This document shows positions 14,770 to 49,987 of a DNA stretch of 64,000 nt, piece by piece (within the stretch, counting starts at the first letter, position 1; each line of letters starts with the position of its first letter). The notes beneath the pieces are model-generated. The model saw nothing but the letters and a program-made list of their open reading frames with translations. It was not told where the DNA came from and did no database searches. The stretch comes from Duncaniella muris (lineage in GTDB: Bacteria; Bacteroidota; Bacteroidia; Bacteroidales; Muribaculaceae). The stretch lies in contig NZ_PUEC01000017.1 in NCBI RefSeq assembly GCF_003024805.1, positions 1-64,000 on the forward strand, written 5' to 3'. A program made the position numbers and the translations under genes.

Positions 14770-14846
14770 GGAAAAGAGTTGTTGAAAAAGAATTTCTGCA
14801 AAGATAAGACATCCGCCGGGAGTGCGATAATGCGGAGAGGCCCCTT

Positions 14847-14976
14847 CCGGAGCGGTAAATCGGTGTCCTCGACCGGACACCATATGCAGGAGGTGATCGC
14901 AAACCCGTGACACCTGCGCGCTTTGCGCTTCGGTGTCACGGGCTATGAGTAAACCGATGTCCTGTCGGACATCACC
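14847..14976 (+). repeat. three-hairpin interspersed repeat, copy R1
   Basis: The copy begins CCGGAGCGGTAAATCGGTG. Its three hairpins are GGTGTCC/GGACACC, a GC-rich CCCGTGACACC/GGTGTCACGGG, and a degenerate third hairpin after CTATGAGTAAACCG. Copies R2 and R3 share the plan. The stretch 14770-15449 holds no gene; it contains R1, R2 in inverted orientation and a terminator. Confidence 0.75.
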
Positions 14977-15097
14977 ATCCGGCCTCAGTACGCGCAGCGT
15001 GATCCGGACAGTTCCCATGTCAGACGAGATGTGTTCCGTCCGGGCTGTTGATGTCGGGTTTCCGGCAATGCGGGTTTCGTCCTGGCCGTGGTCGGCG

Positions 15098-15222
15098 GGT
15101 GTCCGGCAGGACACCGATTTACTCATAGCCCCCGACACCGTAGCGCATTGCGCGTAGGTGTCGGGGAGAAGACATTAAAACCAATGTGGTGTCCGGTTGA
15201 GGACACCGATTTACCGCTCCGG
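15098..15222 (-). repeat. three-hairpin interspersed repeat, copy R2 (inverted)
   Basis: Read on the minus strand this copy has CCGGAGCGGTAAATCGGTG, then CCCCGACACC/GGTGTCGGGG, then CTATGAGTAAATCGGTGTCC and GGACACC. It is the inverse of R1 about 120 bases away. The spacer between them has no gene. Confidence 0.75.
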
Positions 15223-15329
15223 ATGGTCTCGGAATTCGCGGCACCCGGAATCCGCTGTGCCTAAATCATTTCACATTCGGATAGTTTTCGACGTTTCAAC
15301 CGGGTTTTGCAGCGAGACCCGAAAAAAGT

Positions 15330-15449: not shown

Positions 15450-15743
15450 TTATTTCTTGTTTTTGATTTTTTCGAGCTGACGGTCGAGGGCTTCGAGACA
15501 GAGGTCAATGGCTTCTTCAAAAGTGTCGGCGGTCTTGTCGGCTACCTGTTCGCGTTCCTGGGGTACGCTCAGGCTGACGATGGCCTGTTTATTGAGGGCT
15601 GTTTCGGGTTTTACCACACGAAGCGAAACCTCGGCGCTCATCACTTCGGGATAACGGCGGGTCAGCTTCTCGATTTTCTTGTTGATGAAAGAGGTCAGTT
15701 TTTCGCTGATGTCGAAGTGGATGGCTTTGATGTTAGTTTCCAT
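15450..15743 (-). CDS. hpf: ribosome hibernation-promoting factor, short form
   Basis: The 97-residue protein matches the short HPF/YfiA family, which binds the 30S subunit and inactivates ribosomes in starvation. It begins METNIKAIHFDISEKLTSFI and has the usual basic helix LTRRYPEVMSAEVSLRVV; the C-terminus is Lys-rich. Its start overlaps the end of xerC by 11 bases, so the two genes are translated from one mRNA. This pairing is common in Bacteroidetes. Confidence 0.93.
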   Translation of the reverse strand: METNIKAIHFDISEKLTSFINKKIEKLTRRYPEVMSAEVSLRVVKPETALNKQAIVSLSVPQEREQVADKTADTFEEAIDLCLEALDRQLEKIKNKK

Positions 15744-16665
15744 TTTTTCCTCCTTTTTTTAATGCACGCGGATGTGCGAGTTGGTAATTATGTTTAAGTT
15801 CACTGTAGGTCACATGGGTGTAGACCTGTGTAGATGTCAGAGACTGGTGTCCGAGCAGGGTCTGGACTGAGGTGAGAGGCGCTCCGGAGTTGAGCATGTC
15901 AGTGGCAAAGGAGTGGCGCAGCACGTGGGGGCTCAGCCGGCTGGCATGGACTCCCTCTTCGGAGAGGGTGCGGTGGACCACGTTGTAGACAAATTTCCGG
16001 TAGAGCGGAAGTCCGTCGTCGCGGACCAGGAGCGGTGCTGTCGGGTCGGCCGGAGAGATGGCGGTGGCCGGAGAGGAGTCGCGCGTCAACCGATAGTCTT
16101 CTATTGCCTGGCAGAGTTCGGGCCCGATCGGGATTATTCTCTCCTTATTACGCTTTCCGAGCACTTTTAGTTCACCTCTGGAGGTGTCGGTGGCGCGGTC
16201 GAGCAGGCCTGTCAGCTCAGAGCAGCGGATGCCGGTGGAGTAGAGCAGGTCTATGATCAGACGGTCGCGGAGTTCGGCGAAGGTGTCGGTCGGGGCGTCG
16301 TCAAGAACGCGGGCTGTGTCGTCGGGGCGTATGTAGACCGGAAGGTCTTTGGGTATTTTGGCGAGTGTAAGAGCCGATGCGGGGTTTGATTTGAGCCCGT
16401 GGTGACACATCAGAAAGCGGAAAAATGATCGCAGCGATGAAGCCTTGCGGCGGATGGTGCGGGGCGAGCGGCCTTCGCGGCCCAGAGAGCCGATCCACTG
16501 GCGCAGATCCGAGGTGGTGACGTCAAGCGGGTGCAGGAGTTCGGGACGGCCTGCCGTGGCAAAATCGGCCCACGCCATGAGGTCGGTGCGGTAGGCACTG
16601 ACTGTCAGCATCGAGTAGTTGAGCTCGTGGCTGAGGTGGTCGAGGAATTGATTGATCAGTTCCAT
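15733..16665 (-). CDS. xerC: tyrosine recombinase XerC-type
   Basis: The protein resolves chromosome dimers or carries out related site-specific recombination. The 310 residues show an N-terminal SAM-like domain (about 1-85) and a catalytic domain with GIRCSEL (Arg), GKRNKERIIPI (Lys), HVLRHSFATDML (His, Arg) and STQVYTHV (the nucleophilic Tyr). All catalytic residues are present. Its pairing with hpf argues for the housekeeping XerC. In related genomes rpsU often precedes it, but the 158 bases upstream (16666-16823) hold no such gene. Confidence 0.88.
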   Translation of the reverse strand: MELINQFLDHLSHELNYSMLTVSAYRTDLMAWADFATAGRPELLHPLDVTTSDLRQWIGSLGREGRSPRTIRRKASSLRSFFRFLMCHHGLKSNPASALTLAKIPKDLPVYIRPDDTARVLDDAPTDTFAELRDRLIIDLLYSTGIRCSELTGLLDRATDTSRGELKVLGKRNKERIIPIGPELCQAIEDYRLTRDSSPATAISPADPTAPLLVRDDGLPLYRKFVYNVVHRTLSEEGVHASRLSPHVLRHSFATDMLNSGAPLTSVQTLLGHQSLTSTQVYTHVTYSELKHNYQLAHPRALKKGGKNGN

Positions 16666-37822: not shown

Positions 37823-40800
37823 TCAGAAGCGGATCTTGAAGGTCTTGCCTGCGGCGCTGACCAGATAGAATCCGCCTTTGGCGAGAGCGAGCTCGGTGTC
37901 TGATCCGTCAGAAACAGCGATTGCCACTGTGCGGCCGGCGATGTCATAGACGTTGACACGGATGCCGGCTGCGAGGCCGCTGACGCGGATGCCTTCGGCG
38001 GTGGTGCTTACTCTGAGGTCTGAGGCGATGATGCCGGCTATGCCGCTGAAGTCAGGGCCGAAGTTGCCGTCGGCATCTGAGATGCGGAAGGCGTTGAGGG
38101 TGACGTCGCCGCTGACAGAGGCGGGGACGATCTTCACGAAGCGCGATTCGGGGTTGAGTTCGAGTTCGCCCTTGAAGGGAAGTTCGTCCTGGGAGAGGAC
38201 GCGGATTGTGCGCCAGGTGGGTGCGATGTCGGCGTTGCGGGTCTCCTGGATCTTGAGGCGGCAGGCCGAGCCTTCGCTTGCCGATACTTCGAGGTAGATT
38301 TTCTTGGCAGTGCCGTCGAAGTAGGCCATCACCTTGTCGTTGCTTGAGGCTGAACGGAAGGTCACGTGGTCGGCGGTTACTTCGCCTGCGTTAGAGCCGC
38401 CGGCGGTGTAGCACCAGTGGGGGTAGTCGTTCTGCGAGGTCTGCACGAGGCCGCCTACGGTTTCGAAGGGTGCCACGGTGTTGAACGGTGCGAAGTTGAC
38501 GGGGAGGGTCTTGATGGCCTTGCCCCAGTGGGTTTCGCCGCTCTGCTTGGCGCGGGGGAAGTCACCGGTGGTGAGTTTCACTTCGCCTACGAACGACTTC
38601 TCTCCGCCGGCATCTGTGAGAGCTCCTGCGGGGAAGCTGATTGTGTATTCGGAGTTTGCGTCAAGGGCTTCGTAGCTGACAGTCATGCGGGTGCCGCCGG
38701 CAGCAATGGTGATGTCTTCGTAGCTCTTGATGCCGGAGATTGTGGCTCCGCCGTTATATTTGACTTCCTGGTTGAAGCCGAGGCTGATGTTGCCGTCGGT
38801 GTAGTCGATCGAGTTGTTCTGTTCGCCGGAGGTGAGTTCAAGGGGCTGGTCTCCTTCGGGGGCAACGTAGCGCTCTACGAGGATGTCGTTGATGTTGAAC
38901 TTCTTGCCGTTGGCATCAATGCGGAACTTGACTGCACCGGCGTTGGTATAGGTCTTGGTGTATTTGAAGATGCGCTTCTTGGCGCCGATGGCGTAGCTTT
39001 CGGTGCTTTCCTCGCCGCCTGCTATGGTGACGATCTTGACAGTCTGCTGAGAAGAGCCGGTGTTGCCGAAGTAGACGGTCAGCACGCAGGGACCCTGCAC
39101 TTCGGGGGTCTCGATGTAGCCGCCTGCCTTGGTGGTGTAGAACTGGAGGGCCTTTGCGGTTGCACCGCGGTCTTCTTCAGAAGCCGGGCCGTAGTCGGCG
39201 TTAAGGTCTTCAGAGAAGCAGCCGCTCATAGCTACGACGCGGATGGCGTTGGAGCCGGAGCCGATCACCAAGCCGTCAAAATCCATGCTCTGGTTTGCGG
39301 CGTTGAACACGTTGGGGTTGTTTGTCTTCGAACCGAATTTTTCGGCATATGATGCGGGGCATGTGTGGAAGTCGGTGTAGAAGAGCACACCGCCTGCGGT
39401 AGTGGTGAAGCTGTAGACTTCGCTGGGGGTGGTGCCGAGAGAGTTGGTGGCATCGACGCGCCAGTAGTAGGTCTTGTTGGCTTCGAGAGTGGTGCAGTTC
39501 CATTCAGTGGCAGTGAGGCCTGAAGCGGCTTCGGTGAGGTTTTCGGCATCGGTTCCGAGGAAGAGGCTGTAGGTCACATCTCCGCCGTAGGCCTTGCGGT
39601 CGTTCTTCCAGGTGAAGTTGATGCCGTTGGCAATGCCTTCCTTGGCACCGTTGGCAGGGAAGATGAGTTCAGAAGCGAAGGGCACGGTCGGGTCGCCTGA
39701 GGTCTCGAACGAGAGGGTGTCGGTGTAGTCCGAGTAGAGACCCTTGCCGTCAGTTGCGCGCAGGCGGATCTGATAGGCCGTCATGGGCTGGAGGGTTGTC
39801 AGCTCGGCGGTAGTGGCGCCGGCGGGGGCGGTGGCCACTTCGGTGAAGGTGAGGCCGCCGTCAGTAGAGACTTCAATCACGAAACCGTGGTCGGTGTTCT
39901 TGTTGACATCCCAGCTCAGAGACAGCGAGGTCTTTGATGGAGTGCCGATGGCGAACTTGATTGGCTTCTTGATGTAGGGGAAAGCCTCGGTGATGGAGTT
40001 GGCGTAAAGTTCTATCCAGGCGTAACCTGTGGCAGGATCGATTTTTGCAGCGTCGGAAGCATCATTCGGGTTGAGACCGTTTGCTGTTTCCCAGGAATCG
40101 GGAATGCCGTCACCGTCAGTGTCGAGGGGCTTCACGCCGCCTGAGATTGTGCCTGTGCCTCTGTGGGGAAACTGCGATTCGCTGCTGATGCCGTTTTTGG
40201 TTCCTTTGGCACCGTATGATGCGAGTTCATCGATAATATACTGGTCCACTTCATCTCTGACAGGAAGCGTCGGGCCTACATTCTCAAGAATCCAGGCATA
40301 AGATTCTTCAGCAGTCATCATGTTCTGTATCGGAGTTATATGCTGGACTTCAATCTGAGTACCGGCTGCGATCTGAGCGGCGTTTGCAGCATTGAATTCA
40401 TCAATTGTAGCATTTACGGCATCAATGCTTTCAAGGTATATGCTCTGAGATCCGTCTGACTGAGTGCCGAGCATCTCATCTACGGGCATGAGGTAGCCGT
40501 TGAGAATACCGTCTTTGTTGTCGTCATAGTAGTTGCCGGCTCCATAGAAGCGGAATCCCTGTTTGCCGCGTGAGAAGGGCTTTGTCGCACCGTTCCAGGG
40601 GCCTCTCATGAAATAGTTGTTCTGAATGTCAGCCCAGGAGTCACCTTCGGAGTCGCTCATGATATAGCATCCTCCGTTACCCCAGTTGTAGACCACATTG
40701 TTGACATACTGGTTGAGCCCTTTGACTTTCGGGTTGCGGGTCTTGTTTTCGATATAGAGGTTACGGTATAGAGTCACACCGCCGTCAGTCTGAATCAGGC

Positions 40801-41383
40801 CACCGCAGGAGTGAGTCTGCAGGCCCTGGCCGATGATTGAATTCTGGACAGTGATGTTCTGCGGACCAGTGCCTTTTGAGTTTGATGAGATCGAGAAGTT
40901 TTCGTCACGACCCCAAAGCACGGAAAGATGGTCGAAGATCATGTCATGACCGCTGGCCACACCGGCGGCATCTTTGCCGTTATCGCCTTTAATGCCCATG
41001 CGGAAGCGGATGTAGCGAATGATAGTGTTGTTTGCGTTGGAGAATGAGACGCGATTGCCATATACCTGTATGCCTTCGCCTGGAGCTGTCTGGCCGAGGA
41101 CTGTGAGGTTGCTGCTGAAAACCAGAACTGATTTCAGCTCGATGACGCCGCTGACGTCAAAAACTACAATGCGGTTGGGTTTGCTGACGGCATCGCGCAG
41201 AGATCCGGTTCCGGAATCGTTAAGGTTGGTGACGTGGTAGATTTCTCCGCCTCGGCCGCCGGTGGTGAATCTACCGAAACCTTCAGCACCAGGAAAAGCG
41301 AGGATGCCGTTGTCAGCAGCCATCGCTCCTGTGCTCATAGAGAGCGCACAGCAGGCAATAGCAAGTTTTTTAAGAAATTTCAT
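37823..41383 (-). CDS. secreted pectate lyase (PL1-like) with FN3 and T9SS signal
   Basis: The 1186-residue protein starts with a signal peptide (MKFLKKLAIACCALSM). A right-handed parallel beta-helix of polysaccharide lyase family 1 type covers about 28-320, with DHLSVLWGRDENFS (Ca-binding Asp residues) and TRNPKVKG, the region of the catalytic Arg. A Ca-binding DTDGDGIPDSWE motif is near residue 421, two fibronectin type III-like domains lie at about 480-670, a long unassigned stretch follows, and the C-terminus (DIAGRTVAIA...FKIRF) resembles a T9SS sorting domain. It probably cleaves pectin outside the cell. It is the last gene of the susC-led unit. Confidence 0.88.
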   Translation of the reverse strand: MKFLKKLAIACCALSMSTGAMAADNGILAFPGAEGFGRFTTGGRGGEIYHVTNLNDSGTGSLRDAVSKPNRIVVFDVSGVIELKSVLVFSSNLTVLGQTAPGEGIQVYGNRVSFSNANNTIIRYIRFRMGIKGDNGKDAAGVASGHDMIFDHLSVLWGRDENFSISSNSKGTGPQNITVQNSIIGQGLQTHSCGGLIQTDGGVTLYRNLYIENKTRNPKVKGLNQYVNNVVYNWGNGGCYIMSDSEGDSWADIQNNYFMRGPWNGATKPFSRGKQGFRFYGAGNYYDDNKDGILNGYLMPVDEMLGTQSDGSQSIYLESIDAVNATIDEFNAANAAQIAAGTQIEVQHITPIQNMMTAEESYAWILENVGPTLPVRDEVDQYIIDELASYGAKGTKNGISSESQFPHRGTGTISGGVKPLDTDGDGIPDSWETANGLNPNDASDAAKIDPATGYAWIELYANSITEAFPYIKKPIKFAIGTPSKTSLSLSWDVNKNTDHGFVIEVSTDGGLTFTEVATAPAGATTAELTTLQPMTAYQIRLRATDGKGLYSDYTDTLSFETSGDPTVPFASELIFPANGAKEGIANGINFTWKNDRKAYGGDVTYSLFLGTDAENLTEAASGLTATEWNCTTLEANKTYYWRVDATNSLGTTPSEVYSFTTTAGGVLFYTDFHTCPASYAEKFGSKTNNPNVFNAANQSMDFDGLVIGSGSNAIRVVAMSGCFSEDLNADYGPASEEDRGATAKALQFYTTKAGGYIETPEVQGPCVLTVYFGNTGSSQQTVKIVTIAGGEESTESYAIGAKKRIFKYTKTYTNAGAVKFRIDANGKKFNINDILVERYVAPEGDQPLELTSGEQNNSIDYTDGNISLGFNQEVKYNGGATISGIKSYEDITIAAGGTRMTVSYEALDANSEYTISFPAGALTDAGGEKSFVGEVKLTTGDFPRAKQSGETHWGKAIKTLPVNFAPFNTVAPFETVGGLVQTSQNDYPHWCYTAGGSNAGEVTADHVTFRSASSNDKVMAYFDGTAKKIYLEVSASEGSACRLKIQETRNADIAPTWRTIRVLSQDELPFKGELELNPESRFVKIVPASVSGDVTLNAFRISDADGNFGPDFSGIAGIIASDLRVSTTAEGIRVSGLAAGIRVNVYDIAGRTVAIAVSDGSDTELALAKGGFYLVSAAGKTFKIRF

Positions 41384-41484: not shown

Positions 41485-42444
41485 TTATTTCTGAATGTAC
41501 TTTTTACCGTTTTTGATGACGATACCCTTGTAGTTTTCGTCAACCTGAACGCCGAGCACGTTGTAGATAGGTGCGTTTTCGTCAGCTTCAGGATTGGCAA
41601 TGATATCTTCAATGCCTGACTGTTCAGGTGCAGAACCTTCCATTACCACATGGTAGAGGCCGAGTTCGCTACCGCCACAACCGATGCGGAATGCAACGTT
41701 GCCTGTGAGACCGGCGGGGAGGGCGACTTCCTGCTTGTAGTAGCGTTTTGCTTTTGCATCAGAGGGACCGTTGACTGCGATTGTTTCGCCTACAACACCG
41801 TTGACAACGGGAGTTACTTCTGCGTAAAGGCCTTTGTCAATGTATTTGCCACCTGCATGGCCGATCCAGATAGTGAGCTTGGTCGGGTTGCCGATAGCGG
41901 GGAACTGGATGTAAGTACCTGTGCGGCTGCCGGTGTTTGAGTTACGGTTGAAAGCAATGGCGTGAGTAGTTTCCACTGCATCAGCTTCTGAAGCTGCACC
42001 GTAGTTAGTATCTACGCCATGATTTCCACCCCAGCCTTTCATGAGGAGTGTACGGGCCGGGCCAACACCATCCTGGTTCCAGCAGATGAAAGGATGAGTC
42101 ATGTCAATAGCAGTGAAGTCACCGTCTTCTCCTTCGAGAGTGTAGGTCTGGCCGTCAACGAGGTCGATGCAACGGTTTTTGACAGCTTCCCATTTGCCAT
42201 CTGCATTTTTTACATTGAACATTGAACCGCAGGTGTTGAGAGCCATGCCGGTTTTGTCAATGAAATCATAGTTTGATCCGAATCCGAGGCCTTCGAGTTC
42301 AGTTGCTTCGTCAACGATTTCGCCGGCGGGGCTGAAGATAGCCTTGCAGTAGAGAGGAGTGTTATTGAAGTCATAAGTGAAGACTTCTGCATTAGCTCCG
42401 AGAGCCGCCATCATAACGGCGGAAAGGATTAATGATTTTTTCAT
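41485..42444 (-). CDS. secreted protein of unknown function with T9SS-like C-terminus
   Basis: The 319-residue protein has a signal peptide (MKKSLILSAVMMAALGANA) and then a mostly beta domain with DGKWEAVKNRC and conserved aromatic/glycine residues that I cannot place in a family. The last 26 residues (YNVLGVQVDENYKGIVIKNG then KKYIQK) are a T9SS type A-like sorting signal. It lies between susD and the lyase, so it probably binds or processes pectin at the cell surface. The exact role is unknown. Confidence 0.72.
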   Translation of the reverse strand: MKKSLILSAVMMAALGANAEVFTYDFNNTPLYCKAIFSPAGEIVDEATELEGLGFGSNYDFIDKTGMALNTCGSMFNVKNADGKWEAVKNRCIDLVDGQTYTLEGEDGDFTAIDMTHPFICWNQDGVGPARTLLMKGWGGNHGVDTNYGAASEADAVETTHAIAFNRNSNTGSRTGTYIQFPAIGNPTKLTIWIGHAGGKYIDKGLYAEVTPVVNGVVGETIAVNGPSDAKAKRYYKQEVALPAGLTGNVAFRIGCGGSELGLYHVVMEGSAPEQSGIEDIIANPEADENAPIYNVLGVQVDENYKGIVIKNGKKYIQK

Positions 42445-42636: not shown

Positions 42637-44700
42637 TTACTTGTAGGCGGGATGCTGGGTAAGGTTGGGGTTGTCGATCAGCGGATGACCTGCGCTCTTG
42701 CCGGCAAACGGGCAAATCTCGGTTTTGTTCTTGACGAAACCGTGATAAATACCGTATTCGCCTGCAACCCAATCGGGATATGCTCCGTTGTTTTCGGAGC
42801 TGGCAAGCGGTTTGGTATAAACCGTAGAGCCGATGTTGAGGGCGGTTATCGCGGCTGGAGAGTAACCGGCGCAGCGGCGGGAGTTCTTGTTATAGGTGCT
42901 TGTCCAGGCCTGGAACATGTTTACAGTGTACCATACTTCGCTGTCAGAGGGAGTTATGCCATGTGCTGCAAGAACCTCCTTCACAGCCTGATTGTGCTTG
43001 TTTCGGTTGCTTGCGGTCGAGGCATTCTTCATGGCTGTGAGTTTGGAAATTTCAGCCGGATCTGAGATTTCGATATATGGCACTGTGAGAGCCTTTTCGC
43101 CATATTCGCATGAGCTCATCTGGAGTTTGACAATGCGCAGAGCGGGGACATCGGCATATTTGCCTGTGCGGTCTGAAAGATCCTTTATGTCTTGCTGAGC
43201 CTGGCGCACTTCTTTTTCGATAAGGTTCATGCGGATAAGGTCGCCACGGACAAGAAGTTCATCGCCAAGTTCCCATTTGCGTTCCTGCATGATGGTTTCG
43301 AGGAATTCTTCCTTGTTAGCGGCTGCGATAGGCATGGCTCCGATTCCGGCTCGGTCGCGAACCTGCTTTAGAGCAGCTTTGGCGGCGTCATTGGGGCCGT
43401 GGAGGTAGTTCTGGGTTTCGGCATACATGAGAAGTATGTCGGCATAGCGCAGAAGAGGCACGTCAACGTTGCGTTTTGCAGCAGCCTGAGGAGCCTGACA
43501 CCACTGGATGCGGTATTTGCCGGGCATGATGCTTGAGAAAGTGGTAGCGCAGTTTGTACCATCGAACTTTTCAGCATCGCTAAGGAATGTGATAGAGTAG
43601 TTGGCGCAGATCACATCGCGACGCATATCTGCCGGATCAAACGAAAGGTAATACGTAGGCAGTTTGACCTGGAGAGTCTTGCGGCCACCGAAGGGGCCAC
43701 CCATACATCCGGGCTGTCCGTTGTAGATACCGAAATCCGAGTTGGTTGATTCGCCAAGCTGGGCTATCTGCCACATCATTTCCTGAGAGCTGACACCGAA
43801 ATTGCGCTGGCAGTAGTTGTAGAAAAGAGTATGATAGGGGCTCATGCCGTCTCGACCCTGGGTGATGAGGCTGTTTTCACCTTTTCCGATTACCTCTGCA
43901 AGAGCGGCATCTGCGATTTCATAAAGTTCTTTCACGCGGGCTTCATCCGGGCGACGGTCAAAGTGGAGCGAAGAGGCATCGTTGGTCTCAATGTCCCAAC
44001 GCAGAGAGTAACCGCCTGCATACAGACAGATACGTGCAAGAATGCCTTTTGCAGCCTGACGGGTCAGACGTTCCGGGGCAGAACCGTAATTTGATTCAGA
44101 GAACCAGGGGAGATCGTCCACACAGTCCTGCATCTCTCCGATGATACGGTCATAGATTTCATCGCGGCTGGTGCGCTTAGGATACCATGACTGGTCCTGC
44201 TGTTCGCTGATCGGTGAAAAAGCGGCAGGCACATCGCCATAGAAGCGGATAAGTTCGTTGTATGCGAAAGCCCGGATGAAAGTCACCTCAGCTTTCAATG
44301 CTTTGAGCTTAGCAGTCTCATGGAGTCCGGCAAGGCGTTTGAGCGCAACGTTGCAGGATTCGATGGTCTTGTATGACTGGCTGTAGACGGTAGTGGCTGT
44401 TGCGGGGAGGATGGGGTCATAGGCGAAGTTTGCCGAACGGGGGCGTCCGCCGTCAATCGCGTCCTCGCTGATTACAGTGACACCCGGGTCAATGAATGGA
44501 CGCCAGAGTTCAGAGAAAACGAGTGCGCGGTAGCAGCCTTTCACGTAAAGTTCTGCCTTGTCTTCGTCAGAAAAAACGAAATCAAGGTCATCAGCAGTGA
44601 ATGACGGTTTCTCCAGCAGATCCTCGCATGAGGTGAGCGCCGGGGCGGCACCGAAGAGAAGGGCAGCCGCGAGGATGCTATATATTTTGTTCTTTTTCAT
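42637..44700 (-). CDS. SusD/RagB-like outer membrane lipoprotein
   Basis: SusD proteins bind glycan on the cell surface and form a lid on the SusC barrel. The protein starts MKKNKIYSILAAALLFGAAP, with Cys25 after LTS as the lipid attachment site. TPR-like helices (SQSYKTIESCNVALKRLAG, KAEVTFIRAFAYNELIRFYGDVP) and the C-terminal SusD region (RYADILLMYAETQNYL, ERKWELGDELLVRGDLIRM) are present. At 687 residues it is longer than most (500-600). It begins 29 bases after susC. Confidence 0.93.
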   Translation of the reverse strand: MKKNKIYSILAAALLFGAAPALTSCEDLLEKPSFTADDLDFVFSDEDKAELYVKGCYRALVFSELWRPFIDPGVTVISEDAIDGGRPRSANFAYDPILPATATTVYSQSYKTIESCNVALKRLAGLHETAKLKALKAEVTFIRAFAYNELIRFYGDVPAAFSPISEQQDQSWYPKRTSRDEIYDRIIGEMQDCVDDLPWFSESNYGSAPERLTRQAAKGILARICLYAGGYSLRWDIETNDASSLHFDRRPDEARVKELYEIADAALAEVIGKGENSLITQGRDGMSPYHTLFYNYCQRNFGVSSQEMMWQIAQLGESTNSDFGIYNGQPGCMGGPFGGRKTLQVKLPTYYLSFDPADMRRDVICANYSITFLSDAEKFDGTNCATTFSSIMPGKYRIQWCQAPQAAAKRNVDVPLLRYADILLMYAETQNYLHGPNDAAKAALKQVRDRAGIGAMPIAAANKEEFLETIMQERKWELGDELLVRGDLIRMNLIEKEVRQAQQDIKDLSDRTGKYADVPALRIVKLQMSSCEYGEKALTVPYIEISDPAEISKLTAMKNASTASNRNKHNQAVKEVLAAHGITPSDSEVWYTVNMFQAWTSTYNKNSRRCAGYSPAAITALNIGSTVYTKPLASSENNGAYPDWVAGEYGIYHGFVKNKTEICPFAGKSAGHPLIDNPNLTQHPAYK

Positions 44701-44729: not shown

Positions 44730-47700
44730 TTAGAACGAAAGGTTGAGACCGATAACATAGCTGCGTGAGAGGGGGTAGGTCGATGAGTCGTAGCCCGGAG
44801 TACAGATGATGTTGTCGTTCTTCGACGATGCGTCTGGGTCATAGCCTGAATAACCGGTGATAGTGGCAAGGTTATTGGCTGTGAAGTAGAGACGAAGGTT
44901 GCTTACATGGACTTTCTTCATCCATTTTGAAGGGAAGGTGTAGCCGAGAGTAACCTGGGCGAGGCGCAGGTAGCTGCCGTCTTCAACGAAGTAGGAGTTC
45001 GGGTAGGAGATATATTCGGCATTGGTCTTTGTCAAGCTCCAGGTGCGGTCTGACTCATTGGGGTTGAGTGCCTTGATGGTTGCCACATCTTTGGTCTCGC
45101 GTCCGGTTGACGGATCGATGAGACGGTAGTAGTTGTTGCCGAACTCGGTGGGTACGTTCTCGAACGATGCATAGGGGCTCATGGCATGCTTGGTAGCATT
45201 GTAGATGTCGTTGCCGATATTGAACTTCATGAATACGTTGAGATCAAAACCTTTGTATGTGAAGGTGTTGCTGAAACCTCCAATCACATCGGGAGTGCCG
45301 TTGCCGATCTTGACGAGCTTGCGGGTGAACTGTTTTGTGCCGTCTTCGTTTTCGGTGTCGGCGGCAAATTTCATGTCACCGGGTTTGGGTGTGCCTGAGT
45401 AGGGACGCACAACGCCGTCTTTAAGGGCGCCGTAAGTGCCGTCTTCATTGAGTTCGAAGTCATCAGTGGTGTAGATGCCTTCATATTTGTAGCCATACAT
45501 GTCACCGAGGCTTTCACCGACAGTAGCATAATATGTGACTGTGCCTGCACGGCTACCGCCGGCTCCGAATGTCTTGTGGTCTTCGCCGCTTTCAAGGGAG
45601 ATGACTTTTGACTTGTTGAGTGAAATGTTGAGTGATGATGTCCACTGGAAGTCGCGGGTGGCGATGTTTACAGTGTTGAGCTGGAATTCCCAACCGCGGT
45701 TGCGCATCTTGCCTACGTTCTGATACTGCTTGGAGTAGCCGGTCGAAGTGGGGATCACACAGTTCATAAGCATGTCGGAGATCTGGTTGTTGTACCATTC
45801 TACTGTAAGATTCAGGCGGTTGTTGAACATGCCGAGATCAAGACCGACGTTGGTTGCATGGAGGGTTTCCCATTTGAGCTTTTTGTTGCCGAGGGTTGAG
45901 CCGACCACATAGGCGGGTGAGTTTACATCGCCGTCCATCGGGTAGGTTGTCATCGAAGCGTTGGTTACGTAGAGGTTTGAACCGATGCCGTTGTTACCGG
46001 TGACACCGTAGCCTATACGGAATTTGAGGTTGTTGAACCAGTTGTTGATTCCTGCTTCCTGCCAGAATTTTTCCTGGCTCACTCGCCATGCGGCTGATGC
46101 TGAGGGGAAGTAGCCCCACTTGTTGCCTTTGGCGAATTTCGAAGAACCGTCGGCTCGCATTGTGGCGGTCAGAAGATAGCGGTCGTCATAAACGTAGTTC
46201 ACACGGCCGAAGAAAGAAAGCATGTTGCCTTCTGAGTAGCCTGATTCCTTTTCATAGACTTCGACATTCTTGATGTCGTTGAGCCCGTGGTTGGGATAGG
46301 GGAACTTGCGCATAGACCAGTTGTTTTTGTCACTCTTTGAGAAAGAGTATTCCTGACCGACCATGACTGTGAGGTCATGTTTTTCAGCGAAGGTCTTCAC
46401 GAAGTTGAGGGTGTTGGAGATATGCCAGGCTGAACTGCTTGAGTTCTTGATAGAACCCTGCATTCCGGTGTTTTCGGGATCTGAGAGATAGCCGGTAGAG
46501 CGTTCATCGGCAAAAGATGTGCCTTTGCCCCATGAGGTGGTATAGTTGCCCTGTGTACGCCATGAGAAATACTTGAGGAAGTCAATGGTGATGCCGGCGT
46601 TGGCTTCAAAGCGTTTGGTGTGGCTTGATGAAACAGATGCAAGATTCTGGACAAGCGGGTTGTTAAGGTTATAGAAAGAGTCGAGCTTTTTGAACTGGAT
46701 TGAAGTTTCTGAGTTCATGAGTTCGTCCTGAGTGAAGAGTGTGCCGCCGTTGATGGGCTGAAGAAGCACGTAGTCCATATGACCGTAGTTACCGCCGCCA
46801 TGAGTAAGATTGTCATAGAAGAATGAGTTGAAATCAATCTTTACACCTTTCCAGAGTTCGGCGTTGATTTTCGCGCGAAGGGAGTTGCGGCGATAGTCAT
46901 GGTTGGCGAGAAGACCGTCCTGGTCGACATGGTTGTAAGAAAGCAGGACTCTGGTTTTCTCAGTGCCTGTCGAGATAGATACGTTGTGGTTCTGGGTGGT
47001 TGCGTGGCCGCCGAAAGCCTCGTCTTGCCAGTCGACAGAGTAAGGATTGTTGCCATAGCGTGATGCGATACGGTCAAATGCACCGGTGTAGAAATCGTCC
47101 ATGTCTACTCCATAGTCATCGTCATAGACTGTGGACCAGTTGTTTATTTTGCCTTGGAGCTCTGCAAGTTCATATTGATATCCGACGTAGTCGCGGACAT
47201 TTTTCATCATGCTGAGTTTTTTTGACAGTCTGTCAAAAGAAACATAGCCGTTGTAATCGACTTTGGTTTTGCCGGCTGCAGCTGATTTGGTGGTGATCAC
47301 GATGATGCCGTTAGAGCCGCGGGCACCGTAGATGGCGGTAGATGAGGCATCTTTCAGCACGTCGATTGTCTCGATGTCGTTGATGTCGATGTTTGCAAGT
47401 GCGTCAGACATTTCGAAGCCATCGACGATGTAGAGCGGCTTTGTGTTCTGGGTCAGAGATGCACCGCCGCGGACAGTGACGTTCATCGAAGCACCGGGAG
47501 CACCGTTCTGTGACACGATGTTCACACCGGCAGCTTTGCCCTGGAGGGCTGCTGCCGCGGAGGTCACGGGCGCCTTGGCGAGTTCAGAACCTGACACGGA
47601 GCTGACGGCGCCGGTGAGGTCTTTTTTCTTGACTGTACCGTAGCCGATGGCCACTACTTCGTCAAGCATGGTTGCGTTGGTGGAGAGGGTGATGTCGAGG

Positions 47701-47978
47701 TGTGTCTGGCCGTTGACGGGCACTTCCTTGTTGTCATAGCCGATGTAGCTCACAACGAGGACGGCTTTGGCCGGAACGCTGATAGTGAAGTTGCCGTCAA
47801 GGTCGGTGGCAACACCGTGTTGGGTTCCTTTCTGCATGACGGTGGCGCCGAGCAGGGGCTCGCCGGTGTCGTCAACAACTGTTCCGCTTACGGAAATGTT
47901 TTGGGCGCAGATTGAAAGTGAGAAGGTTACGGTCAGCAAGAAGACAAACCAGTAACGGAGTTTCTGACTAAAATTCAT
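44730..47978 (-). CDS. SusC-like TonB-dependent outer membrane transporter
   Basis: The 1082-residue protein imports oligosaccharides using TonB energy. It has a signal peptide (MNFSQKLRYWFVFLLTVTF), a CarboxypepD_reg-like domain (about 28-95; GTVVDDTGEPLLGATVMQKG), a plug (about 105-230; VAIGYGTVKKKDLTGAVSSV, GSNGIIVITTKS) and a 22-strand barrel ending in SYVIGLNLSF with the terminal Phe. All parts are present. It heads the pectin locus and lies downstream of a candidate invertible promoter. Confidence 0.94.
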   Translation of the reverse strand: MNFSQKLRYWFVFLLTVTFSLSICAQNISVSGTVVDDTGEPLLGATVMQKGTQHGVATDLDGNFTISVPAKAVLVVSYIGYDNKEVPVNGQTHLDITLSTNATMLDEVVAIGYGTVKKKDLTGAVSSVSGSELAKAPVTSAAAALQGKAAGVNIVSQNGAPGASMNVTVRGGASLTQNTKPLYIVDGFEMSDALANIDINDIETIDVLKDASSTAIYGARGSNGIIVITTKSAAAGKTKVDYNGYVSFDRLSKKLSMMKNVRDYVGYQYELAELQGKINNWSTVYDDDYGVDMDDFYTGAFDRIASRYGNNPYSVDWQDEAFGGHATTQNHNVSISTGTEKTRVLLSYNHVDQDGLLANHDYRRNSLRAKINAELWKGVKIDFNSFFYDNLTHGGGNYGHMDYVLLQPINGGTLFTQDELMNSETSIQFKKLDSFYNLNNPLVQNLASVSSSHTKRFEANAGITIDFLKYFSWRTQGNYTTSWGKGTSFADERSTGYLSDPENTGMQGSIKNSSSSAWHISNTLNFVKTFAEKHDLTVMVGQEYSFSKSDKNNWSMRKFPYPNHGLNDIKNVEVYEKESGYSEGNMLSFFGRVNYVYDDRYLLTATMRADGSSKFAKGNKWGYFPSASAAWRVSQEKFWQEAGINNWFNNLKFRIGYGVTGNNGIGSNLYVTNASMTTYPMDGDVNSPAYVVGSTLGNKKLKWETLHATNVGLDLGMFNNRLNLTVEWYNNQISDMLMNCVIPTSTGYSKQYQNVGKMRNRGWEFQLNTVNIATRDFQWTSSLNISLNKSKVISLESGEDHKTFGAGGSRAGTVTYYATVGESLGDMYGYKYEGIYTTDDFELNEDGTYGALKDGVVRPYSGTPKPGDMKFAADTENEDGTKQFTRKLVKIGNGTPDVIGGFSNTFTYKGFDLNVFMKFNIGNDIYNATKHAMSPYASFENVPTEFGNNYYRLIDPSTGRETKDVATIKALNPNESDRTWSLTKTNAEYISYPNSYFVEDGSYLRLAQVTLGYTFPSKWMKKVHVSNLRLYFTANNLATITGYSGYDPDASSKNDNIICTPGYDSSTYPLSRSYVIGLNLSF

Positions 47979-48076
47979 ACACGCATGGTTTAGATTTGGA
48001 TATTTATTTAATTACTTGTTATTTCCCTTTTTGCTACTGTGATAGTATGAAATGCGATGGCATATAGCATGGCGTA

Positions 48077-48268
48077 TCTCTTGCTTAGAGATACTAAATA
48101 TTCGGCAAAATTAAGCAAAAAAAATGAAATTATGGGTATTAAAGTGTGATTATTGGTTAAAACGATATGTTAATATGTCGGAAGATGTTTCACATATTTC
48201 TTCCGGCTGCATGGTTAGGGGCTTGTTATATAATATGTTGTGCGGGGTGGAGATCTCTAAGCAAGAGA
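48077..48268. repeat. inverted 16-bp sites flanking the susC promoter (putative inverton)
   Basis: ATCTCTTGCTTAGAGA lies at 48077-48092 (read on minus as TCTCTAAGCAAGAGAT), and ATCTCTAAGCAAGAGA at 48253-48268: a perfect 16-bp inverted match with a 160-bp segment between. Each site has dyad arms (ATCTCT/AGAGA) and an asymmetric centre (TGCTT versus AAGCA). The promoter of susC lies inside. The layout resembles Bacteroides phase-variable promoters, but two operator sites for one dimeric regulator could also explain it. Confidence 0.5.
48106..48113 (-). promoter_or_regulatory. -7 box for susC
   Basis: On the minus strand TAATTTTG matches TAnnTTTG and lies 128 bases upstream of the susC ATG, inside the flanked segment and close to the left inverted site. 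No good TTTG is found at the -33 distance, which fits a promoter that needs an activator. The leader crosses the left site. Confidence 0.5.
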
Positions 48269-48290
48269 ATTACGGTTCCGAAACACACGT

Positions 48291-48360
48291 GTGGCCGGTC
48301 TTTGGGTTAAAGACCGGCCACAAATCAAGGGGGCTGTCTGACGAAAATCAGACAGCCCCC
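48291..48360 (-). terminator. two strong hairpins after the TPR protein gene
   Basis: GTGGCCGGTCTTT (48291-48303) pairs with AAAGACCGGCCAC (48309-48321), and GGGGGCTGTCTGA (48329-48341) with TCAGACAGCCCCC (48348-48360), each over 13 perfect bases. They follow the TPR gene on the minus strand and should end or insulate its transcript from the susC region; T runs are weak. Confidence 0.55.
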
Positions 48361-48388: not shown

Positions 48389-49987
48389 TCAGCGGCCGAA
48401 TATGGCGCCGTTGGCTTTGAGCAGCGCGCTGAAGCGCGGGTCTTTGCGGATGGGCTCCACGTTGACATCGGCTTCGGTATTGACGGCCCAGTTATAGTAG
48501 TTGGCATAGCCTTTTTCGAGCGATGCGGCCATGCACTTGAAGGCTTTGTCGCTGTTGCCGGCCTGGGCGTAGTAGCAGGCGGCGAGATAGTTGACTTCGC
48601 CGTCATAGTCATCGGTTATGGCGAGCACTCGTTCTATCCAGCGGTCGGCTTCTTCCTTGCGGTCGAGCTGCAGGAGTGCGAATCCGCGGTATGACTTTAT
48701 CTGGTCGTGGGCCAGGTCCATGTCAAGCACACGTTCGAAGCTCATGTCGGCGTTTTTCTTTTGCCGGCGGTAGTCTTTGAGCACCCATCCGCGGATTATG
48801 GCGAGATAGGGGTCTTCAGGGGCGTTCATCGTGGCTTCGCTGAGACATACGGAGGCATCGGCGCTGTTGCCCAGGCGCAGCTGTGCGAGGGCTTTGGCTA
48901 TGAGGGCTTCGTTTGAGTCCGGTTCTTTCTCAAGGGCGGTTTCAGCGCAGGAGAGGGCGCTGTCATAGTTGCCTAAGGCGCGCTGGATCTGCGATTTGAT
49001 CACATAGTAGCGCTCGTTGTCGCGGGTGGCGCTGATGGCATAGTCGATGTTGAGCAGGGCGGTGTCGAACTTGCCGAGGGCGAAGTAGCATTCGGCGAGT
49101 GCGGCGTTGAGGCCGGGATATGAGTCGAGGTTTTCGTTGATGATGCGGTCATAGTCGGCTATGGCTGCGAGGTAGTTGCAGTGGCCCTGGGCTATCATGG
49201 CGCGGATGAAGTAGTACATGCCGTTGCGCGGGGCCTGGCGTATGGCGGTCGATAGGCCGGCTATAACTACGGGGTAGTTGGTTTTGGATATTTCCACCAG
49301 TTCGCGGAGTGCCCGCGGGGTGTTTTCCTGGTCGGTTGAGATGGCGAGGATGTAGTCATCGACGGCTCCCTGCTCATTTCCGGCGAGGGTGCGCACTGAG
49401 GCGCGGCGCAGGTAGACCTGGCTGTTTGACGGGGAGAGTTCCACGGCCTGGTCGCAGAGTTCGTCGGCCAGACCGAGGTTGTTTTCCTTGACGGCCACGC
49501 GGGCGAGCCCGAAGAGGGCTTCCTGGCTGCGGGGATTGCGCTGCTGTAGCAGGCGGAAGTCGGCTTTGGCTTCGGGGTAGCGGCCGAGTTCGTAGAGGGC
49601 CGTGCCTCGCTGGTAGACGGCCACATAGTTCTGCGGGTCGAGCGAGATTTCGGAGTTGAGGTCGCCGATGGCCTGCTCGTAGCGGTGGAGCATCATGTTG
49701 ATGTTGGCCCGCAGCTGTATGGCCTGGAAGCGGGTGTCAAGGTCTTCCTCCGGGAGATATTTGAGAGCGTTGTTAATGTCATCGAGTGCCTTGATGTAGT
49801 CGTTGCGCAGGTAATATTCATTGGCACGGCGGAAGAGGGTCTCTGCATCGTGCGGATCTTCGTCGAGTAGGGCCTGGTAGGCCTTCATGAGCGCTTCTTT
49901 CATCGGGTTGGGCGCTTCGGCCGATGCTGTAAAGCCGAATGCGCCGGCTGAGAGGATGAGTGAAATTGCGATTTTTCTTAGGTTCAT
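48389..49987 (-). CDS. secreted or periplasmic TPR repeat protein
   Basis: The 532-residue protein has a signal peptide (MNLRKIAISLILSAGAFGFTASA) and then tetratricopeptide repeats along most of its length (for example AKADFRLLQQRNPRSQEALFGLARV and SALSCAETALEKEPDSNEAL), which form a superhelix for protein binding. No enzyme domain is seen. It is a common, functionally undefined type in Bacteroidetes. It is likely monocistronic, since a strong hairpin pair follows. Confidence 0.82.
   Translation of the reverse strand: MNLRKIAISLILSAGAFGFTASAEAPNPMKEALMKAYQALLDEDPHDAETLFRRANEYYLRNDYIKALDDINNALKYLPEEDLDTRFQAIQLRANINMMLHRYEQAIGDLNSEISLDPQNYVAVYQRGTALYELGRYPEAKADFRLLQQRNPRSQEALFGLARVAVKENNLGLADELCDQAVELSPSNSQVYLRRASVRTLAGNEQGAVDDYILAISTDQENTPRALRELVEISKTNYPVVIAGLSTAIRQAPRNGMYYFIRAMIAQGHCNYLAAIADYDRIINENLDSYPGLNAALAECYFALGKFDTALLNIDYAISATRDNERYYVIKSQIQRALGNYDSALSCAETALEKEPDSNEALIAKALAQLRLGNSADASVCLSEATMNAPEDPYLAIIRGWVLKDYRRQKKNADMSFERVLDMDLAHDQIKSYRGFALLQLDRKEEADRWIERVLAITDDYDGEVNYLAACYYAQAGNSDKAFKCMAASLEKGYANYYNWAVNTEADVNVEPIRKDPRFSALLKANGAIFGR

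Follow-up and report, generated by a model that had tools for sequence, protein, structure and literature searches.

A putative invertible promoter of a susCD operon in Duncaniella muris and related inverted-repeat elements among Muribaculaceae

Invertible promoters in Bacteroidales

In Bacteroides fragilis, the recombinase BF2766 (Tsr19) inverts a nearby promoter as well as a distant one, according to the accessible part of PMC4747536. The element described here, which lies upstream of a susCD operon in a 64,000-nt stretch of the Duncaniella muris genome (hereafter the window), shares with that system the -7 box TAnnTTTG (PMC4747536 and PMC3090145, available portions). It differs in that the gene of Tsr19 adjoins one of its two promoters, whereas the candidate recombinase of D. 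muris is encoded on a contig with housekeeping genes. A Tsr19-like layout, with one recombinase, a polysaccharide promoter, and a remote promoter of an outer-membrane protein, is present by arrangement only (recombinase on contig C52, upxY on C19, susC on C9).

Other inversions in B. fragilis likewise switch SusC/SusD genes (Tsr0667) and polysaccharide promoters (Mpi), as described in the same partly accessible source (PMC4747536). Unlike the element in D. muris, Tsr0667 brings about multi-site rearrangements of gene clusters (a shufflon; PMC4747536, same portion), and Mpi, a serine recombinase, acts on sites of a different sequence (PMC8375218, available excerpt). The excerpts available from two catalogs of gut invertons (PMC11892184, PMC8748976) report intergenic promoters flanked by inverted repeats near UpxY and tyrosine invertases in Bacteroidota.

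UpxY-linked elements with a local invertase are also present in B. fragilis (NZ_CP069564.1), Phocaeicola massiliensis (OY726003.1), and two fecal phage scaffolds (MT835494.1, MT835622.1), which are the four records examined among the 75 plasmid and 47 phage records that were matched. Each encodes a recombinase with 40–44% identity, followed by two short elements with inverted repeats, similar arms, and an outward box 26–31 bp in; on the plasmid NZ_CP069564.1, the recombinase (40%) and its two elements are followed by UpxY and MraY. The elements in all four records are local to the recombinase, and their arms vary (TCTTT, TTCTC, TCTCT). The combination of a local tyrosine invertase, promoters framed by inverted repeats, and upxY in these Bacteroidales records, together with Tsr19, indicates that the kind of system is already known.

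What we regard as new are the present target, a predicted unlinked recombinase combined with two promoters, cores that are private to each pair of sites, and an AAACA motif whose distance from one of the sites is fixed. The accessible text of PMC11892184 contains no word beginning with "Muribacul", the site 13-mers were encountered in papers only in one unrelated report on human telomeres, and no open-licence paper was found that links Muribaculaceae to invertible promoters, to invertons, or to phase variation by DNA inversion, Muribaculum to invertons, or S24-7 to invertible phase variation.

Architecture of the element upstream of susC

The element spans 192 bp between susC and the 3' end of a gene for a TPR-repeat protein. 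A reading of the window made without database searches (the sequence-only reading) had proposed an invertible promoter at this place. The perfect 16-bp inverted pair, the -7 box, and the asymmetric cores between dyad arms that it described were all recovered; its coordinates of the left arm are correct, but its letter string for that arm begins one base early (at 48076). The following features were recognized:

48077–48092: susC-proximal recombination site TCTCTTGCTTAGAGAT, composed of TCTCT-TGCTT-AGAGA and one T, with a perfect inverted partner at 48253–48268
48082–48086: 5-bp core TGCTT of the proximal site (TGCTA in the sister species G025)
48093–48252: segment predicted to be invertible, as observed for counterparts in relatives
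48113–48106, minus strand: -7 promoter box TAATTTTG, aimed at susC (ON)
48190–48186, minus strand: AAACA motif, a putative accessory site, 79 nt inward of the outer boundary of the distal site
48253–48268: susC-distal recombination site ATCTCTAAGCAAGAGA, composed of one A and TCTCT-AAGCA-AGAGA
48259–48263: 5-bp core AAGCA of the distal site (TAGCA in G025, a concerted change)

The two arms are perfectly complementary and enclose 160 nt, in agreement with the definition of invertons as short intergenic segments between inverted repeats of 10–40 nt (PMC11892184, accessible part). The predicted internal promoter would read outward through one of the repeats toward susC, and its box fits the -7 consensus of Bacteroides as printed in the available part of PMC4747536. 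Dinucleotide shuffling of the window (100 replicates) produced perfect inverted pairs of at least 16 bp that are 100–400 nt apart at a mean of 0.01 and a maximum of 1 per replicate; the window itself holds two, the element and a 25-bp pair at 14846–15223. The exact 15-mer has only two copies in the genome of D. muris (3.27 Mb, 79 contigs), both at this element; if up to two mismatches are allowed, it matches 7 places vs 8 for the reversed control.

The surroundings comprise the operon on one side and, on the other, two hairpins and the TPR gene:

37823–41383, minus strand: 1186-aa protein with a distantly pectate-lyase-like N-terminal part and an fn3 domain
41485–42444, minus strand: 319-aa protein without a match in Pfam or NCBIfam, probable operon member
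42637–44700, minus strand: SusD family lipoprotein (PF07980, PF14322)
44730–47978, minus strand: susC, the gene presumed to be regulated, encoding a SusC/RagA TonB-linked outer membrane protein (TIGR04056, 918.5 bits; Pfam)
48290–48322: GC-rich hairpin between the 3' end of the TPR gene and the element
48329–48360: second GC-rich hairpin, terminator-like
48389–49987, minus strand: TPR-repeat protein gene, whose 3' end faces the element

The label "pectin" that the locus had received is weak, as the 1186-aa gene scores only 105 bits against the pectate lyase PelZ (cut-off, 840). A search of the intergenic DNA of the window against a plasmid collection gave no match.

A family of sites with matched cores

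The arms-only pattern (two copies of TCTCT-N5-AGAGA separated by about 190 bp) is present in 88 of 297 genomes of Muribaculaceae and in 18 of 30 genera, and the reversed control in none; as with all counts of elements in this study, kinship is not taken into account. The more specific TCTCTTGCTWAGAGA occurs in 21 of the 297 genomes. An order-wide search detected the pattern in 5/295 genomes vs 1/295 for the control, namely, in two members of the same family (G000, which is D. muris, and G038) and in three members of two other families (G323 with six elements, G530 with five, and G571 with one). Eleven of the 12 elements outside the family have inverted matched cores, and the cores of the remaining one (G323:C27) are direct. 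The genomes G323 and G530 belong to one genus of another family and represent a second lineage rich in elements of the arms type; their congener G436 has none.

The core letters vary widely from element to element, but the two cores of each pair matched exactly in all 75 listed elements (72 inverted and three direct, as read by eye), which fits crossover sites and not operators. Among the listed elements, each of the direct cases (in G099, G139, and G011) is found at a place with a third site. A simple pattern of arms plus core suffices to find such switches in genomes for which there are no reads.

The 56 distinct elements gathered from the fetched loci are not a random sample, because they include some overlapping pairs in triple-site loci and some that were found via the recombinase; 53 of them have an outward TAnnTTTG box near an end (52 at one end only, one at both ends). 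Where only one end has a box, it lies 28–31 bp from the outer boundary of the site in 51 of 52 cases, and an inward box at the same distances is present in only 1/56. Among the 47 oriented elements no longer than 230 bp, 25 have the motif AAACA, which was picked after inspection of the elements, with its start 76–84 nt inward of the outer boundary of the non-promoter site; counted from the promoter end, none of the 47 has it in this range. The distance between AAACA and the box varies from 74 to 107, so that the motif is tied to the site and not to the promoter; its interpretation as an accessory or arm-type site is conjectural.

A second element in D. muris

In the genome of D. muris, TCTCT-N5-AGAGA occurs at 11 places (vs 3 for the control), two of which are the pair in the window and one of which is a site of the second element, on C19. 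A relaxed arm pattern yields exactly two elements, the one in the window and another at C19:795–984 (L153), and the reversed control none. The second element has the core TAATA/TATTA, and its partner site contains one mismatch in the outermost base of an arm. Its box is located 29 bp in and is aimed at a gene encoding UpxY (NF033644; score of 125 bits vs a cut-off of 100), which corresponds to the ON orientation. A tRNA-Leu lies on the other side, and the contig ends just past upxY.

Opposite orientations in relatives

Both orientations occur among members of the site family when different species are compared. A locus of G099 and its ortholog in G139 have susC-like genes on both sides and contain three sites. 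The flanks are collinear (86.9% identity over 1707 bp, the first segment included, and 80.7% over 1011 bp), and the second segment aligns over 106 bp in inverted orientation (82% identity), with the alignment ending at the sites. G099 has one box directed to the left and one to the right, whereas in G139 both are directed to the left and none to the right; from these directions, the right-hand susC appears to be ON in G099 and OFF in G139. In the pair G040/G281, the flank on the side of the recombinase is collinear (77% over 700 bp outward from the site), and so is a 23-bp stretch at the far site. At the promoter end, 63 bp align in inverted orientation (79% identity). The two inverted pairs align over only these 106 and 63 bp of the segment, the rest having diverged, and each compares different species, indicating inversion in the course of evolution and not within a culture.

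The two inverted pairs emerged flank by flank; a whole-flank comparison of similar segments had returned five rows, all of them parallel, and three of these were the same place twice. The elements linked to upxY comprise two in ON and four in OFF orientation, with three of the six UpxY matches being weak (36–52 bits), and among those linked to a recombinase, 13 are directed toward its gene, 6 away from it, and 2 have no assigned direction. The conserved pair, the matched cores, the fixed outward box, the inverted orthologs, and the adjoining recombinases lend strong support, at the level of the family, to the invertible promoter that had been proposed from the window.

A candidate for one element in both orientations within a single genome (G280, C30 and C38) turned out to consist of paralogs (flank with 82% identity over 55 bp, interior opposite), which makes it merely supporting. 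The triple-site loci of G099, G139, and G011 (L176, L177, and L185) are situated between two divergent susC-like genes; because two of their three sites are repeated in the same direction, such loci could conceivably lose a segment as well as invert it. In G031 (L115), a single element is flanked by two divergent susC-like genes and could select one or the other.

A candidate recombinase on an unlinked contig

As had been noted from the window, no recombinase gene was identified beside the site, and the sole one found in the window is Xer-like (15733–16665). Elements in the genomes G156, G195, and G102 are adjoined by one type of tyrosine recombinase. A profile search recovered 30 loci of this recombinase: 14 with a strict element in the fetched flank, 2 with an element that has one changed arm base, and 14 with neither; some of the flanks are short or contain runs of N, and the loci lacking a strict element include those of D. 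muris and G025. At two places in G002 (C1:2091788–2093556 and C2:881846–883613), there are closely similar copies of a recombinase with two elements, and the relaxed pattern detects eight elements in this genome.

The genome of D. muris has 29 matches to PF00589. One of them, encoded on contig C52 beside housekeeping genes, is an intact open frame of 401 aa that is 42–51% identical to the enzymes of G156, G195, and G102, whereas the other integrases of D. muris reach at most about 30% with the same three enzymes over long stretches. In a tree that took in 22 of the 28 other PF00589 matches, with long-branch warnings among the other integrases, the C52 recombinase falls into a clade with 20 other enzymes of the element type (support, 96/99). 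Its ortholog in G025 is 93% identical and occupies the same place beside lptB and udk. Among solved structures, only remote Xer and integron integrases were matched, and a TCTCT-N5-AGAGA site (with up to one mismatch) is absent from the 6-kb contig C52.

The recombinase is present (E ≤ 1e-40) in 84/88 genomes with a pair vs 116/209 others (Fisher p 3e-13, ignoring kinship) and in all 21 genomes with a TGCTW site. The four exceptions (G111, G123, G157, and G173) have only remoter matches, with best E values from 2e-32 to 1e-6; G157, which is 99% complete and has three elements but no close recombinase, is a real exception. The recombinase elsewhere in the genome that the sequence-only reading had called for may thus be the product of the intact candidate gene on C52, a family member whose action on the sites is putative.

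Proposed mechanism

We consider the element at 48077–48268 to be an invertible promoter, i.e., a phase-variation switch of the susCD operon that is at present ON, with a probability of roughly 0.83. In the mechanism that we infer, a tyrosine recombinase acting in trans, most likely the 401-aa protein encoded on C52, would bind the TCTCT/AGAGA arms of both sites, strands would be exchanged across the 5-bp core, where the partners must match, and the segment would then invert. In the present orientation, the TAnnTTTG promoter is predicted to read through the proximal site into susC. After inversion, it would read antisense toward the 3' end of the TPR gene and the two hairpins, which would leave it without a sense gene, and susCD should be silent (OFF). 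The C52 recombinase probably also flips the upxY promoter of the surface-polysaccharide locus on C19; the elements on C9 and C19 would not recombine with each other because their cores differ.

Extended to the family, the findings can tentatively be read as an address system. One clade of recombinases would serve many promoters with shared TCTCT/AGAGA arms, and the pair-private 5-bp core, kept identical by recombination itself, would let one unlinked enzyme flip the susCD and capsule promoters independently and without joining them. AAACA, at its fixed distance, would act as an accessory or arm-type site and determine the geometry of the reaction, and the same system might switch defense genes of the SspB/SspC type and set divergent susC operons in relatives.

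For a family of gut bacteria, the locus provides a switch of a glycan-uptake operon that can be tested, with a candidate enzyme and a second target named in the same genome. If one enzyme flips both promoters, cells would vary in capsule and nutrient uptake, which may bear on their sensitivity to phages and their response to diet.

The locus in the sister species and alternative explanations

The whole stretch is present in only two of the 27 genomes of the genus that were searched, those of D. muris and G025. The opposite orientation, a search for which had been suggested as a check, was not found among them; the two loci are parallel and both ON. The locus of G025 is 89% identical over 481 bp and retains both sites, each with a single change: TGCTT became TGCTA on the left, and AAGCA became the complementary TAGCA on the right. 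Such a concerted change is what recombination between the copies would give, and it provides indirect evidence that the element has been active since the split of the two species. Between the two species, 20 of 81 aligned positions differ in the distal half of the segment, against 4 of 81 in the promoter half and 0 of 137 beyond the left site; since the latter two regions are so similar in the sisters, other constraints also act. Twelve of 17 loci with susC relatives were examined: L023 is the sister species with its element, L024 is almost without upstream sequence, and the other ten have no TCTCT-type pair upstream.

A family element that no longer inverts in this species, with its promoter locked in the ON state, would agree with the orientation in both genomes that have the locus, with the lack of a recombinase linked to the element, and with the low identity of the C52 recombinase to 28 relatives in the family (41–50%). 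The concerted change of the cores since the split from G025, the retention of the arms beside a fast-diverging inner half, and the intact recombinase at the same place in both species argue against such a relic, which we regard as unlikely.

The invertible promoter might also be flipped by a recombinase other than that on C52, either another of the PF00589 matches or a serine recombinase, an explanation that overlaps with the preferred one. The number of PF00589 matches (29) leaves room for it, and the four genomes that have pairs but no close family recombinase suggest that other enzymes may serve such sites. The C52 protein, however, is the only one from D. muris that falls into the clade flanking these sites, and it has been kept together with the element in G025, which makes another enzyme improbable.

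Operator pairs at such distances exist, and each of the sites is nearly palindromic around a spacer of odd length, as would suit two operators of one dimeric regulator that loops the DNA without any inversion. Operators, which had been named as the main alternative to inversion, should have free spacer letters, in conflict with cores that match within every listed pair though they vary between elements; the outward box at a fixed place, the inverted orthologs, and the recombinase genes adjoining such sites contradict them as well, so that this explanation is very improbable. An RNA element, in which the susC mRNA would begin with a hairpin formed by the proximal site that protects or regulates it and the distal copy would be incidental, is hardly credible: an 8-bp hairpin is predicted in a 41-nt piece of the leader (z -2.0; 8/200 shuffles as good), but the entire 125-nt leader shows no advantage in folding over shuffled sequences (z -0.79), a search of Rfam gave no match, the hairpin follows from the dyad arms anyway, the complementary change affects the distal site, which is located upstream of the promoter, and the matching of cores across the family makes an RNA element insufficient.

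Further elements and repeats

Several elements of the family are associated with other kinds of genes. In L106 (G195:C34, 7137–11918) and also in L118 and L148, an element separates a small gene that matches no family, presumed to be HNH-like at L106, from defense genes of the sspB/sspC type. The assignment of the latter is based on PADLOC matches to SspB and SspC in G195 and on DUF4007-like sequences detected by tblastn in L118 and L148. The promoter is aimed at the small gene in all three loci. In G080 (L052/L111), an element is flanked by two divergent DUF3575 genes that are about 80% identical in DNA.

The second inverted pair of the window, at 14846–15223, consists of nested repeats with arms of 25, 15, and 14 bp, whose letters are unrelated to the TCTCT/AGAGA sites. 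These repeats adjoin the Xer-like recombinase gene (15733–16665).
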